Shown here: positions 41,829 through 47,694 of the stretch, piece after piece
How the letters are laid out: each line of letters opens with the position of its first letter
How positions within the stretch are numbered: position 1 is the first letter of the stretch
Source: Candidatus Zipacnadum vermilionense
GTDB lineage: Bacteria > Armatimonadota > Zipacnadia > Zipacnadales > Zipacnadaceae
DNA: 64,000 nucleotides
Reading direction: 5' to 3'
NCBI GenBank assembly: GCA_029821755.1
Contig: JALGSV010000010.1
Location: forward strand, 1-64,000
Translations under genes and position numbers: made by a program
Notes under the pieces: generated by a model
What the model saw: the letters and a program-made list of their open reading frames with translations, nothing else
What the model was told of the DNA's origin: nothing
Database searches by the model: none

Positions 41829-43046
41829 TTAGAACAGGCTCTCCTGTGCCTGGCCGCCGACCACCCGTGCCGGGATGACGCCGTCGCTGACGGCGATGGT
41901 CAGCTCCTCGCCGGGCGAGGCCAGCGCCACCTGGCTCACCAGGGCTCCGTCGCGGGTCCTTTGTACCAGCGCGTAGCCGCGACTGAGGACCTCCCGGGGG
42001 TCGAGGGCGCGGAGGCTGGCCTCGAGGCGCTGCAGCACTTGGCCGGCGCGCTCCAGGCGGCGACGGAGGGTGTCCACCGCCCGCTCGGCGGCCAGGTCTA
42101 TCCGCTGCAGCCAGGGGGTGAGCAGGGCCTCCGGACGGGTGAAGATCGGGTTCTGGTCGAGGCGGGCCAGGCGCAGGCCCCGGCTGCGGGCCAGGCTCTC
42201 CAACCCGGCGCGGGCCTCGCGGCCCAGGGCGGACAAGTGCGCCCGCAGCTCGGCCTGATCCGGCACGACCAACTCCGCCGCCGCCGAGGGCGTGGGCGCC
42301 CGCAGGTCGGCCACCAGGTCGGCGATAGTAATGTCGGTCTCATGGCCCACTGCGCTGACCACCGGGACCGGGCTGGCGAAAATGGCGCGGGCTACCGCCT
42401 CCTCGTTGAAGGCCCACAAATCCTCCAACGAGCCGCCGCCGCGCCCGGCGATGATGACCTCCGCCCCGGAGCGGGCGGCCCGGCGCAGGGAGTTGACGAT
42501 ACCGGCCGTGGCCGCCTCGCCCTGCACGAGAGTGGGCACAATCAGCACTCGCGCCAGGGGGTAGCGGCGGCTGAGGATGTTGAGCAGATCCCGGATGGCC
42601 GCGCCGGTGGGGGAAGTGACCAGGGCAATGGTGCGCGGGAAGCGGGGCAGCGGGCGCTTGCGCTCCGGGGCGAAGAGGCCCTCCGCTTCCAGGCGTGCCT
42701 TGAGCGCCTCGAAGCGCTGGTGCAACTCGCCGAGGCCGTCCGGCTGCATGAAGGTGACGATCAGTTGGTACTTGCCCTGCGGTTCGTAGACGGAGATGTT
42801 GCCCCAGGCCACCACCTGCTCGCCCTCGTGGGGGTCTAAGGGCAACTTGCCGGCCGACCCGCGGAAGCAGACGCAGGAGAGCAGGGCCTTGTCATCTTTC
42901 AAGGAGAAGTACAGGTGGCCGGAGGAGTGGCGCTTGAAGTTGGATATCTCCCCACGCACCTGAACCTGGGAGAGCAAGGCGTCGCTCTCCAGCAGGCGCT
43001 TGAGATAGGAGGTAAGCTCACCGACACTCCAGATGGCGACAGCCAC
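41829..43046 (-). CDS. xseA: Exodeoxyribonuclease VII large subunit
   Basis: A 405-residue protein with an N-terminal OB fold (VRGEISNFKRHSSGHLYFSLKD) and a central catalytic domain (LVTSPTGAAIRDLLNILSRR, GRGGGSLEDLWAFNEEAVARAI, SAVGHETDITIADLVAD). A coiled-coil C-terminus binds XseB. It starts at GTG 43046, 2 nt after the nusB stop, with GGAGG inside nusB, so the two are translationally linked. Confidence 0.95.
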   Translation of the reverse strand: MAVAIWSVGELTSYLKRLLESDALLSQVQVRGEISNFKRHSSGHLYFSLKDDKALLSCVCFRGSAGKLPLDPHEGEQVVAWGNISVYEPQGKYQLIVTFMQPDGLGELHQRFEALKARLEAEGLFAPERKRPLPRFPRTIALVTSPTGAAIRDLLNILSRRYPLARVLIVPTLVQGEAATAGIVNSLRRAARSGAEVIIAGRGGGSLEDLWAFNEEAVARAIFASPVPVVSAVGHETDITIADLVADLRAPTPSAAAELVVPDQAELRAHLSALGREARAGLESLARSRGLRLARLDQNPIFTRPEALLTPWLQRIDLAAERAVDTLRRRLERAGQVLQRLEASLRALDPREVLSRGYALVQRTRDGALVSQVALASPGEELTIAVSDGVIPARVVGGQAQESLF

Positions 43047-43048
43047 GG

Positions 43049-43231
43049 TTAGTCCGCCTCCGCCAGAGGGACATCGGGGTCGGCGTCGGGGGGGGCGGCA
43101 TCCAGACCAGGGCCCGGCTCCTCTCCCCCTCTTTCTGGAGAGGGGGCGGGGGGACAGGGGGCGACGGGCGAGACGTCCGTCGTACCGGGAGGCACGGAGG
43201 CTTGGAGGCCAGCGCTACCCGGAGTGGCCAC
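43049..43231. repeat. Repeat-derived 3' extension of nusB
   Basis: It contains GAGGCTTGGAGGCCAGCGCTACC, a degenerate member of the palindrome family, and CCCCTCTTTCTGGAGAGGGGG, a pyrimidine-type hairpin like that in der. Together they account for most of the NusB tail. Confidence 0.55.
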
Positions 43232-43729
43232 CTTCCGCGTTTGCTGTAGTTCGCGCGCTACCGTGCCCAGGATGCCGTTAACGAACTTGCCGCTTTCGGA
43301 GGTACCGTACTCCTTGGCCAGATCCACCGCCTCGTCAATGGTGGCGCCGATGGGGATATCTCCGAGGTAGAGCAGCTCCGCCATGGCCATGCGCAGGATG
43401 TTGCGGTCCACCACGGGCATGCGCTCGAGGGTCCAGCCCTGGGAGAGGCGGTCAATGCGCTGGTCGATGTCCTCCCGGTGGCTGAGGTACTCCTCACACA
43501 GGGCACGGCCGAACTCACTAACCGCGGGGCGCAACTTGCGGGTCTCCAGCGGGGAGAAACGCCATTCTTCCACCAGCGAGGTGAGGATGTCCTCGGCCTG
43601 GGCCCAAGCTCGGGCCGTGCCGCCCACCCCGGCATCGGAGGCGTACAGCAGGGCCAGGCAGAACTCGCGGCCGCGCCGCCGAGCGCCTGCTCTTTCCCGC
43701 TTGCTGATGGCCGACTGTTCAGGTCGCAT
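43049..43729 (-). CDS. nusB: Transcription antitermination factor NusB with extra C-terminal tail
   Basis: 226 residues. The all-helical NusB core runs from RRRGREFCLALLYASD to KFVNGILGTVAREL, with MRMAMAELLYLGDIPIGATIDEAVDLAKEYG-type conserved helices in between. It binds boxA RNA with NusE for rRNA antitermination. Beyond the usual end (about residue 166) a 60-residue tail (GSAGLQAS, APCPPAPSPERGGEE) is encoded by what look like two intergenic repeats. The start is uncertain: 43750 or 43729, neither with a clear RBS. Confidence 0.9.
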   Translation of the reverse strand: MRPEQSAISKRERAGARRRGREFCLALLYASDAGVGGTARAWAQAEDILTSLVEEWRFSPLETRKLRPAVSEFGRALCEEYLSHREDIDQRIDRLSQGWTLERMPVVDRNILRMAMAELLYLGDIPIGATIDEAVDLAKEYGTSESGKFVNGILGTVARELQQTRKVATPGSAGLQASVPPGTTDVSPVAPCPPAPSPERGGEEPGPGLDAAPPDADPDVPLAEAD

Positions 43730-43796
43730 GGTGAATGTACAGGTGCGCATCAGGCTGTCCGCAGAGCCGCAGGGCGTGAGGGAAGGACCGCCGCAG

Positions 43797-44049: not shown

Positions 44050-45405
44050 CTAACCTCCTTCTGCCATGCCGAAGCGACGCTCCAAGAAGTGTGTGTCGAT
44101 CTCGCCCCGGCGGAAGTACGCATTACCTAAGACGCGCAGGTGGAAACTCAGGTTCGTACGGATGCCCTCCACCTTCATCCCGGCCAGAGTCGCCTCCATC
44201 CGGGCAATGGCCCGGTCCCGATCCGGCGCCCAGCAGATGACCTTGGCGACCATGGGGTCGTAGTAGGTGGACACCTCCGACCCGGACACCACGCCGCTGT
44301 CTACTCGCACGCCGGGGCCGAAGGGGACCTCCCAGCGGGTGATTCTCCCCGGCGAGGGCAGGAAGTTGCGCTCCCCGTCCGCCGCCAGGATCCGGCATTC
44401 GAGGGCGTGCCCGTTGAACCAGATCTGTCCTTGCTCCAGATCCAGCTCCTCCCCCGCGGCGATGCGAATCTGCCAGGCGACCAGGTCGACCCCGGTGAGC
44501 ATTTCCGTGACCGCATGCTCCACCTGGATGCGCGTGTTCATCTCGATGAAGTAGAAGCGCCCGCGGTCGTCAAGCAGGAACTCTACCGTCCCGGCGTTAC
44601 GGTAGCCCGCGGCCTGAGCGGCCTTGATCGCAGCCTCCCCCAGGCGCCGCCGCAGGGAACTATTCACCGCTGCGGAGGGCGACTCCTCGACGAGCTTCTG
44701 GTGGCGGTGTTGGATGGAACAATCGCGCTCACCTAGATGGATGGTGTTGCCGTGCTCGTCGGCTAGGATCTGGACCTCGATATGGCGCGGCTCGGCCAGG
44801 TACTTCTCTATGTAGACCTCGCCGGAGCCAAACGCCGCCCGCGCCTCCATGCGCGCCTGCTCCAGGACGGAGCCGATAGACTCGGGGTTGTGTGCGACGC
44901 GAATGCCGCGGCCGCCGCCACCGAGGGCCGCCTTGATCATGACGGGGTAGCCCAATTCGGCAGCGATGGCGCGGGCGGCCCGAGCGTCGCGCACGTTGTC
45001 CTCGCTCCCCGGCACCACGGGCACCCCCGCCTCGCGCACGGTTCGCCGGGCTACCGCCTTGTCGCCCATCTTCTCGATCACGTCCGAGGGAGGGCCGATG
45101 AACTTGAGCTTACAGGCCTCGCAGGCCTCGGCGAGGTTCGAGTCCTCTGACAGGTTCCCGTAGCCGGGATGGAGGGCCTCCGCGCCGGTGATCACCGCCG
45201 CGGAGAGAATATTGGCCGCGTTGAGATACGAGTCGCGGTTCTGTGAGGACCCGATGCAGACGGCCTCGTCGGCCATGCGTACGTGCAGCGACTCACGGTC
45301 CGCCTCGGAGTAGACGGCCACGGTCTTGATCTTCAGTTCGCGGCAAGCCTGCAGGACGCGGCAGGCAATCTCGCCTCGATTGGCTACCAGGACTTTCTCG
45401 AACAT
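44050..45405 (-). CDS. accC: Biotin carboxylase (acetyl-CoA carboxylase subunit)
   Basis: A 451-residue ATP-grasp enzyme that carboxylates biotin on BCCP. MFEKVLVANRGEIACRV opens the protein. ALGGGGRGIRVAH is the glycine-rich ATP lid, HQKLVEESPS follows, and EMNTRIQVEHAVTE holds the catalytic Glu/Arg region. All expected active-site segments are present and the length is normal. AGGAG precedes the Met at 45405. The BCCP-like gene upstream lacks the biotin lysine, which makes the partner of this enzyme uncertain. Confidence 0.96.
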   Translation of the reverse strand: MFEKVLVANRGEIACRVLQACRELKIKTVAVYSEADRESLHVRMADEAVCIGSSQNRDSYLNAANILSAAVITGAEALHPGYGNLSEDSNLAEACEACKLKFIGPPSDVIEKMGDKAVARRTVREAGVPVVPGSEDNVRDARAARAIAAELGYPVMIKAALGGGGRGIRVAHNPESIGSVLEQARMEARAAFGSGEVYIEKYLAEPRHIEVQILADEHGNTIHLGERDCSIQHRHQKLVEESPSAAVNSSLRRRLGEAAIKAAQAAGYRNAGTVEFLLDDRGRFYFIEMNTRIQVEHAVTEMLTGVDLVAWQIRIAAGEELDLEQGQIWFNGHALECRILAADGERNFLPSPGRITRWEVPFGPGVRVDSGVVSGSEVSTYYDPMVAKVICWAPDRDRAIARMEATLAGMKVEGIRTNLSFHLRVLGNAYFRRGEIDTHFLERRFGMAEGG

Positions 45406-45457
45406 GGCTCTCCTAGCACTGAGAGTCAGGGACAAAGGGGCAAGATCAGCGGCGGCC

Positions 45458-45583
45458 CTACTGGCGTAGAGTGATGAACTCCTCGACAGTCAGGCCGGGT
45501 TGCTGGAGCATGACCGCGGGCTGGATGCGCCGGTAGGGCGCCGAGGTTTCTTCAGCAGCCGGAAGCCCGTCAGAACTTCTCAT
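45458..45583 (-). CDS. Small ORF of 41 codons between accC and the pilin-like gene
   Basis: An ATG frame (45583) overlapping the end of the pilin-like gene by 14 bp encodes a 41-residue peptide ending LQQPGLTVEEFITLRQ. It fills most of the 164-bp gap before accC. Absent from the ORF track because of its length. The ribosome site is weak and I recognise no family. It may be real because gene spacing in the operon is otherwise tight. Confidence 0.35.
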   Translation of the reverse strand: MRSSDGLPAAEETSAPYRRIQPAVMLQQPGLTVEEFITLRQ

Positions 45584-45953
45584 GCCCCGGCGTAGGGTCC
45601 CAGACCCTTCCCGTGGTCGGGTCGTACCCGAAGTCCTGGCCGCTGACGCTGCACTTAAGCGGCACCCCCCACTTGGGGTCCAGTTGGGCGGGGTACTCCC
45701 CGGTAGAGTCCTTCTCCATCTGGATGAAGGAGCGCAGTTGCTGCAGGTACTGCTGGCATTCGACGCTCTTGCCCTTCTGCAGGGCCTGGCCCAGCGGAGT
45801 TTGCGCCTCGCCCTCGAAGCGCGGCTTTTTCTCCACCCCGCCCTGCGGCCGCAGCCAAACCCACCAGACGACTACCATGATGATGGCGATCGCCACCAGC
45901 AGACCGATCAGCGTGGCCTGACCCGCGCGCGAGTCGAACCGGGTGCGCGTCAT
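45570..45953 (-). CDS. Pilin-like single-pass membrane protein
   Basis: 127 residues. The N-terminus RAGQATLIGLLVAIAIIMVVV resembles a type IV pilin/pseudopilin leader helix (G, then TLIELLVAIAII), but Gly replaces the usual Glu5 and no cleavage-competent context is certain. The C-terminal part has SGQDFGYDPTTGRVWDP, reminiscent of the GYDPxTG... ends of bacterial pseudopilins. It sits inside the acc operon between accB and accC, where it would not be expected. It may be a minor pseudopilin or just a membrane-anchored protein. Confidence 0.55.
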   Translation of the reverse strand: MTRTRFDSRAGQATLIGLLVAIAIIMVVVWWVWLRPQGGVEKKPRFEGEAQTPLGQALQKGKSVECQQYLQQLRSFIQMEKDSTGEYPAQLDPKWGVPLKCSVSGQDFGYDPTTGRVWDPTPGHEKF

Positions 45954-45960
45954 CGTCCCC

Positions 45961-46398
45961 TCAGTCCTCCCTATCCGGGCGCAAGATGATCAGGGCATCG
46001 CCGAATTGCACCGGCTGATGCTCCTGGGCAATGACCTCCTCCACCGTGCCGTTCACCGGCGCGGTGACGGCCGTGATCTGGCGGAGCGATTCGATAGTCC
46101 CGATAGTCTGGCCCTGCGCAACATGGTCGCCGGCCTCGACCAGCGGTTCGCTGTCCGGCCCCTGGCCCGGATGGAAAAACCCCACCAGGCGCGCCCCGAC
46201 CACCACGGTCTTGGCGACGGGGGCGGTCAGCCCGGGAACCACGGCCATGCCGGGGGTCGGCGGCGCCTCCTCCGGCGCGGCGGGCACCGCGGGGGCGCGG
46301 CGCAGGCGTGCGTAGGAGTCCCCCTCCCGCACCGCCAACTCCGCGGCGTCGGAGGACTTCAGCAGGTCGAGTAGGCTCAGGATGCGCTCTCGGTCCAC
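45961..46398 (-). CDS. AccB-like biotinyl-domain protein lacking the biotin lysine
   Basis: 145 residues. The N-terminus (RERILSLLDLLKSSDAAELAV) and the Ala/Pro linker are those of the biotin carboxyl carrier protein. The lipoyl/biotinyl fold at about 65-140 is clear (LVGFFHPG, VEAGDHVAQGQTIGTIE, APVNGTVEEVIAQEHQPVQFGD). Where BCCP has E-A/S-M-K-M, this has E103-S-L-R106-Q, so the biotin-accepting Lys is Arg. Start GTG 46398 has AGGAG at ideal spacing. It lies between efp and accC, the standard accB position. It could be a non-biotinylated regulator or scaffold, as plant BADC proteins are, or a degenerate copy. Confidence 0.85.
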   Translation of the reverse strand: MDRERILSLLDLLKSSDAAELAVREGDSYARLRRAPAVPAAPEEAPPTPGMAVVPGLTAPVAKTVVVGARLVGFFHPGQGPDSEPLVEAGDHVAQGQTIGTIESLRQITAVTAPVNGTVEEVIAQEHQPVQFGDALIILRPDRED

Positions 46399-46529: not shown

Positions 46530-47093
46530 CTATTTCGCCCGCGTCATGTACTCCCCGCTGCGGGTATCCACTACGATGGCCTCGCCGGTCTCGATGAACA
46601 GCGGTACGGTTACCTTGATGTCGCCCTCGATGGTCGCCGGCTTGGAGCCGCCCTGGGCGGTGTCGCCCTTCAGGCCCGGCTCGGCATAGACGATCTCGCG
46701 CTGCACCGTGTTGGGCAGCTCCAGGCCGACGATGCGGGTCTCGTAGATGGTGATGAAGAGGTCCTCGCCCTCCTTGAGCCACGGCAGGGACTCGCCTATC
46801 TGTGCCGCGGTCAATTCACGCTCCTCGTAGGTCTCATTGTCGAGAAAGTGGTAGATCTCCCCGTCGGTCCACAGGTACTGATGGGGACGCTTCTCCAGAC
46901 GCGCGGGCTCCAGGCGGTCCTCGGGATTGAAGGTCTTGTCGAAGGACTCTCCGCTGATCACGTCGCGCAGCTTGGTGCGGATCATGGCGGAGCCGCGGCC
47001 TACGCCCATGTGATGGTCGGCAGACAGCACCCGCAGAATACGCCCGTCCATGTCGACAGTTGTGCCTTCCCGAAGTTTCGTAGCCAGAATCAA
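46530..47093 (-). CDS. efp: Translation elongation factor P
   Basis: A 187-residue protein that binds between ribosomal P and E sites and relieves stalling at polyproline. It has three beta-barrel domains: KLREGTTVDMDGRILRVL at the N-terminus, GLELPNTVQREIVYAEPGLKGDT in the middle, and a C-terminal OB fold ending VDTRSGEYMTRAK. The loop tip reads GVGRGSA, so Arg33 stands where E. coli has modified Lys34. The start is TTG 47093, with AGGAGG about 8 nt upstream. The ORF-track start adds 15 unsupported residues. accB-like follows downstream, a common pairing. Confidence 0.95.
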   Translation of the reverse strand: MILATKLREGTTVDMDGRILRVLSADHHMGVGRGSAMIRTKLRDVISGESFDKTFNPEDRLEPARLEKRPHQYLWTDGEIYHFLDNETYEERELTAAQIGESLPWLKEGEDLFITIYETRIVGLELPNTVQREIVYAEPGLKGDTAQGGSKPATIEGDIKVTVPLFIETGEAIVVDTRSGEYMTRAK

Positions 47094-47294
47094 GACGCCA
47101 ACCTCCTGCCTAAGCCGCAACGCCGCCCACCCACGCAACTACTCCCGTCAACCCGACCGGGAGACGAGAGGGGGGAATGGTGCGGCGATGAGTGCGACGA
47201 TGAATGTATGAAGGAGTGTACAAGAACGGGGGGGAGATTGTAAAGGCAGGGGAACCGGCGCCGGCACAACCGCAGCGGCTGATACCGTGGACCC

Positions 47295-47376: not shown

Positions 47377-47694
47377 TTACCAGCCGCGACCGCCACCACC
47401 GCCACCACCGCCGCCGAAGCCGCCGCGGCCACCGCGGCCGCCGCCGCGGTTGCCCTGCGGGCGCGCCTCATTGACCGTCAGCGCACGGCCCTCTAGCTCG
47501 GTGCCGTTCAGACCGGCGATGGCCCGCTGGGCCTCCTCAAGGTCGCCCATCTCGACGAACCCGAAGCCTCGGGACCGCCCGGTCTCGTTGTCCTGCATGA
47601 CGATGGCATCGTCGACGGTGCCAAACTTCTCGAACTCATCACGCAACGTGCTACTGGTGGTCGAATACGGCAGATTCCCTACGTAGATACGCAT
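47377..47694 (-). CDS. RRM RNA-binding protein with glycine-rich tail
   Basis: 105 residues with a single RNA-recognition motif: RNP2 is IYVGNLPY and RNP1 is RGFGFVEM. A Gly/Arg tail (RGGRGGFGGGGGG) follows. Bacterial proteins of this type bind RNA and, in cyanobacteria, rise in the cold. A consensus-like promoter lies about 150 bp upstream, leaving a long 5' leader that could be regulatory. Single gene with its own terminator. Confidence 0.93.
   Translation of the reverse strand: MRIYVGNLPYSTTSSTLRDEFEKFGTVDDAIVMQDNETGRSRGFGFVEMGDLEEAQRAIAGLNGTELEGRALTVNEARPQGNRGGGRGGRGGFGGGGGGGGGRGW

Follow-up and report, generated by a model that had tools for sequence, protein, structure and literature searches.

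A lysine-less AccB paralogue in the acc gene cluster of Candidatus Zipacnadum vermilionense, probably a BADC-like subunit of acetyl-CoA carboxylase

The acc gene cluster of Candidatus Zipacnadum vermilionense (Armatimonadota) encodes a protein that is, by its architecture, a full type-I biotin carboxyl carrier protein (BCCP, AccB) paralogue and that carries an arginine in place of the biotinylated lysine. By analogy with plant BADC, it would be, with a probability of about two in three, a non-catalytic and non-biotinylated subunit that pairs with AccC and AccB and assembles or tunes acetyl-CoA carboxylase (ACC), which catalyses the step that commits carbon to fatty acid synthesis. The lysine-less protein has the features of a pseudo-subunit: it possesses the parts of a carrier without the cofactor, and it is retained in addition to the true carrier and the enzyme.

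Results and discussion

Gene, motif and neighbourhood

The window analysed is a stretch of 64,000 nucleotides at the start of contig JALGSV010000010.1. The open reading frame of the lysine-less AccB encodes 145 aa, and its GTG start codon is closely preceded by an AGGAG ribosome site. The features of this locus are the following:

46530-47138, minus strand: efp, elongation factor P, upstream of the lysine-less gene (Pfam EFP_N, EFP and Elong-fact-P_C; probable start near 47093)
45961-46398, minus strand: lysine-less AccB paralogue, with N-terminal helix and hairpin, Pro/Ala linker, thumb and biotinyl barrel; Arg106 tips the biotin turn
46075-46098 (approximate), minus strand: biotin-site hairpin I-E-S-L-R-Q-I of the lysine-less AccB (I-E-A-M-K-L-F in canonical AccB)
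45570-45953, minus strand: pilin-like protein with a single transmembrane segment, between the lysine-less gene and accC, conserved in most of the Armatimonadota operons that could be read; no Pfam match
44050-45435, minus strand: accC, intact biotin carboxylase with a probable start at 45405; no other was found in the genome
43849-44046, minus strand: small membrane protein continuing the operon (weak DUF2273 match, 21.6 bits, below the cut-off)
43049-43750, minus strand: nusB
41829-43046, minus strand: xseA-like gene, identified by reading its translation

The biotin turn reads T-I-E-S-L-R106-Q, which bears out the preliminary description of an arginine at the biotinyl-lysine position of a protein in the accB place. 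The acceptor lysine of E-A-M-K-M is thus missing, and the lysines of the protein are confined to the N-terminal helix and the linker, with none in the barrel. The assignment of the fold and of the N-terminal segment to the carrier type also held, as Pfam Biotin_lipoyl matches at 44.5 bits (cut-off 22.1) and the TIGR00531 BCCP model spans the whole length (E=9.9e-17, 61.8 bits, under the equivalog cut-off of 115 bits). A lipoyl domain was considered and rejected, since the site has no lysine.

Concerning the operon, the order efp - accB - accC had been proposed. The efp gene is indeed upstream and accC downstream, but the small gene at 45570-45953, which had gone unmentioned, intervenes before accC. 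AccC itself is full length (PRK08591, 670 bits), in agreement with the earlier view that it is intact. The xseA gene is a usual member of the efp-accB-accC-nusB-xseA neighbourhood. Upstream of efp, the window also encodes a small glycine-rich RRM RNA-binding protein (47377-47694, minus strand).

Acetyl-CoA carboxylase genes of the genome

The assembly (4.39 Mb, 95% complete) holds two AccB-like proteins, the lysine-less one and a canonical AccB with the motif EAMKLFNEI on contig 45 (G000:C45:2137-2547). The separate biotinylatable AccB that had been predicted to exist elsewhere was therefore found, and the same is true of nearly all relatives. The other Biotin_lipoyl matches of the genome look lipoyl-type or efflux-type. 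One AccD/AccA pair is encoded on contig 20, two proteins belong to the biotin/lipoate ligase class, and the only biotin carboxylase found is the AccC of this cluster. A second carboxylase with its own biotin carboxylase was rejected, because the genome has only one Biotin_carb_C domain. A true BCCP and a heteromeric ACC are thus present together with the lysine-less protein.

Loss of the lysine across Armatimonadota

The search covered 61 genomes (60 relatives and the genome itself), and the biotin site was compared in both AccB copies wherever these were available. AccB-type matches appeared in all of them, two in most, and the general gene order is efp, the lysine-less AccB, usually the pilin-like gene, and accC. 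Within the order of Ca. Z. vermilionense, the lysine is absent in 36/36 readable copies linked to efp or accC (23 Arg, 11 Gly and 2 Ser); five further genomes of this order have no linked copy among those read, and in at least one of them (G015) a contig end truncates the gene. Elsewhere in the phylum, in other orders and classes, the lysine is missing from 11 of 19 linked copies (four Gly, three Arg, and one each of Thr, Asp, His and Ser). An unlinked AccB with the lysine occurs in 58/58 genomes where it was read, and in the stretches read it never adjoins efp or accC. The loss of the lysine is not due to chance, as it is common to close and distant relatives.

These data also bear on the possibility that the arginine is a sequencing error or a point mutation of the only AccB. 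The preliminary description had named lysine in close relatives as the sign of such an origin, and these relatives have Arg, Gly or Ser instead. Both congeners, with 69 and 64% identity, have arginine there too, and the genome has its separate EAMK AccB. Since the loss is shared by relatives, an error or private mutation was rejected, and its probability is negligible. The arginine itself did not turn out to be a conserved residue, since Gly, Ser, Asn, Gln, Thr, Asp and His also occur. A conserved function of this side chain was accordingly discarded, and the property shared by the family is the absence of lysine.

The remaining 8 of the 19 linked copies outside the order keep the lysine. Biotinylation may therefore persist in some members of the family, and these copies possibly represent an intermediate state. 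They (L030, L091, L093, L104, L106, L113, L115 and L123) share the same neighbourhood and show altered motifs such as ETLKM and ESLKV.

Constraint and predicted structure

The variety of replacements (R, G, S, T, D, H, N, Q) indicates a side chain free to change, as would be expected if the gene were a decaying relic of a former AccB after takeover by the second one. This explanation is very improbable in view of the constraint observed. The dN/dS values of close pairs (0.15-0.48) are similar to those of canonical AccB, so the gene is under purifying selection; no broken frames were found among the 30 closest copies, and the gene survives across the phylum. Moreover, there are conserved residues specific to the subfamily (V71, G72, F74, T108 and Y/F131-G132). 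The residue before the site is Leu in 35/35 of the lysine-less proteins compared and Met in 39/39 canonical AccB, a comparison in which only the lysine-less side is independent, as the canonical set was picked by motif.

The AlphaFold model, built with 23 homologues, has a pLDDT of 89.8, near 98 in the barrel; residues 3-33 form a helix and a hairpin at the N-terminus, and the linker is poorly ordered. Among PDB structures it comes closest to the biotinyl domain of E. coli, 1bdo (TM 0.90), to the BCCP in the BC-BCCP complex of the same species, 4hr7 (TM 0.93), and to Arabidopsis BCCP1 (9a87). R106 lies in the turn between strands 98-104 and 107-112, at the place of biotin. The predicted structure and the alignment thus give the protein the barrel-sandwich fold, the thumb and the N-terminal domain of a functional AccB. 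The lysine-less protein shares the fold, the N-terminal domain, the length of the thumb and the place in the operon with canonical AccB (E. coli 1bdo/4hr7), but it lacks the acceptor lysine, has Leu for the preceding Met and falls under the TIGR00531 cut-off. In this family a His mostly stands in place of the thumb Tyr found in canonical BCCP, so contacts may differ.

The main rival to a BADC-like role is autoregulation through the N-terminal domain, as the N-terminal domain of AccB autoregulates in E. coli (PMC3896788). The lysine-less protein could be a regulator of expression or of biotin, acting through this domain or through unmodified occupancy of the biotin ligase, and tune the acc and bio operons. 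The good conservation of the N-terminal domain fits such a role, but the barrel residues G72, F74, G89, G116 and G132 are also conserved, which a pure N-terminal regulator would not need, and the domain search found no DNA-binding domain. We consider this function unlikely.

The pilin-like protein

The pilin-like protein of 45570-45953 has invariant C66, R74, P88, C101, Y110 and H124 and a C-terminal motif CPVSG..Y.YDP.TG.V.C.TPGHE, whose last Cys is lost in the genus of Ca. Z. vermilionense. It may be a membrane anchor of the carboxylase. The presence of its gene between the lysine-less gene and accC across the phylum also raises the idea that the lysine-less protein was recruited to another function, such as that of a soluble partner to the pilin-like protein, anchoring AccC or another protein at the membrane. 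Nevertheless, all the AccB domains are kept and the proximity of the two genes may just reflect the operon, which makes such a recruitment quite unlikely.

Spread in Chloroflexota and other phyla

A Ktedonobacterales genome has a similar arrangement. The AccB gene that comes after efp encodes Asn at the site, an xseA-like gene lies downstream of it, and the canonical AccB is encoded elsewhere. From 101 Chloroflexota genomes drawn, the best match was read in 50, and a lysine-less copy, with N, G, Q, R or D at the site, is present in 30 of these, mostly adjoining efp; this fraction is not a census, because the 50 are best matches to a lysine-less query. The canonical copy with lysine lies elsewhere in 28 of the 30, and the lysine-less copy is usually without accC alongside. 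The mostly efp-linked lysine-less loci of this phylum are L065, L175-L184, L196, L199, L200 and L203-L223. Several Chloroflexota that have no lysine-less copy carry an ordinary EAMK AccB next to efp. In a search seeded with an alignment of the closer copies, the matches outside Armatimonadota (Verrucomicrobia, Proteobacteria and Bipolaricaulota) are nearly all ordinary AccB of the EAMK/EVMK type.

A tree of 127 rows, whose support is modest because it rests on only 147 columns, requires a minimum of nine switches between the presence and the absence of Lys. One clade of Chloroflexota with Gln is placed among canonical AccB, apart from the other lysine-less copies. The loss of the lysine has therefore probably been repeated.

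Comparison with known systems

To our knowledge, plant BADC is the only described case of such a carrier-derived pseudo-subunit. It is a BCCP homologue without the AMKL motif that binds BCCP and BC; it has been proposed as an assembly glue and, earlier, as an inhibitor, which is debated, and a 2025 paper presents the non-catalytic BADC subunits as unique to the plant enzyme (PMC11926652). Like BADC1-3, the Armatimonadota protein is a BCCP homologue without the biotinylated lysine motif that exists alongside a true BCCP and a heteromeric ACC (PMC11926652), but it is bacterial and encoded in the acc gene cluster with accC, a link at the level of gene order. The likeness to BADC drawn in the preliminary description stands for the anatomy (full BCCP architecture, lost motif, coexisting true BCCP, link to biotin carboxylase); a regulatory or assembly function is proposed by analogy. 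We file the protein as BADC-like and not as BADC, on a likeness that is anatomical and leaves descent aside.

The epsilon-type subunits of certain bacterial acyl-CoA carboxylases are small proteins unrelated in sequence to BCCP. They are non-catalytic helpers that promote assembly (PMC11926652), as the lysine-less AccB may also be. A search of the open-access literature for a bacterial or cyanobacterial BADC, a non-biotinylated BCCP or an Armatimonadota ACC precedent found no bacterial case; in passages of a paper on the Chloroflexus ACC, only EAMKM carriers are described (PMC11077971).

Possible mechanism and meaning

The points counted for the BADC-like role are the absence of lysine in the 36 linked copies, the Leu before the site, the residues specific to the subfamily, the conserved linkage, the single AccC and AccA/AccD pair, the separate canonical AccB, purifying selection, the match of the predicted barrel to E. 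coli BCCP and the precedent of plant BADC; those counted against it are the lysine kept in 8/19 distant copies, the usual absence of accC linkage in Chloroflexota and the thumb Tyr being mostly His. Under this role, the protein would be produced along with AccC, which is encoded in the same cluster, and could join the biotin carboxylase/carrier subcomplex through its conserved N-terminal domain and carrier-like barrel. There it would take places beside or instead of the biotinylated AccB encoded elsewhere, and it may assemble, stabilise or limit the activity of the only acetyl-CoA carboxylase of the cell, either as glue or as inhibitor.

In a wider sense, the chances are about even that, in Armatimonadota and Chloroflexota, lysine-less AccB is a widespread and repeatedly evolved regulatory or scaffold subunit of ACC that emerged at the accB position linked to efp, with the catalytic AccB elsewhere, and that BADC-type control is not a plant invention; in Armatimonadota the pilin-like membrane protein may join the complex. 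For both phyla, an annotation that relies on the efp-accB-accC position mistakes this gene for that of the biotin carrier. If the bacterial counterpart of BADC holds, carrier-derived pseudo-subunits evolve repeatedly, and an operon-encoded one that has just one AccC and one AccB as partners would be a simple system for the question of glue versus inhibitor.
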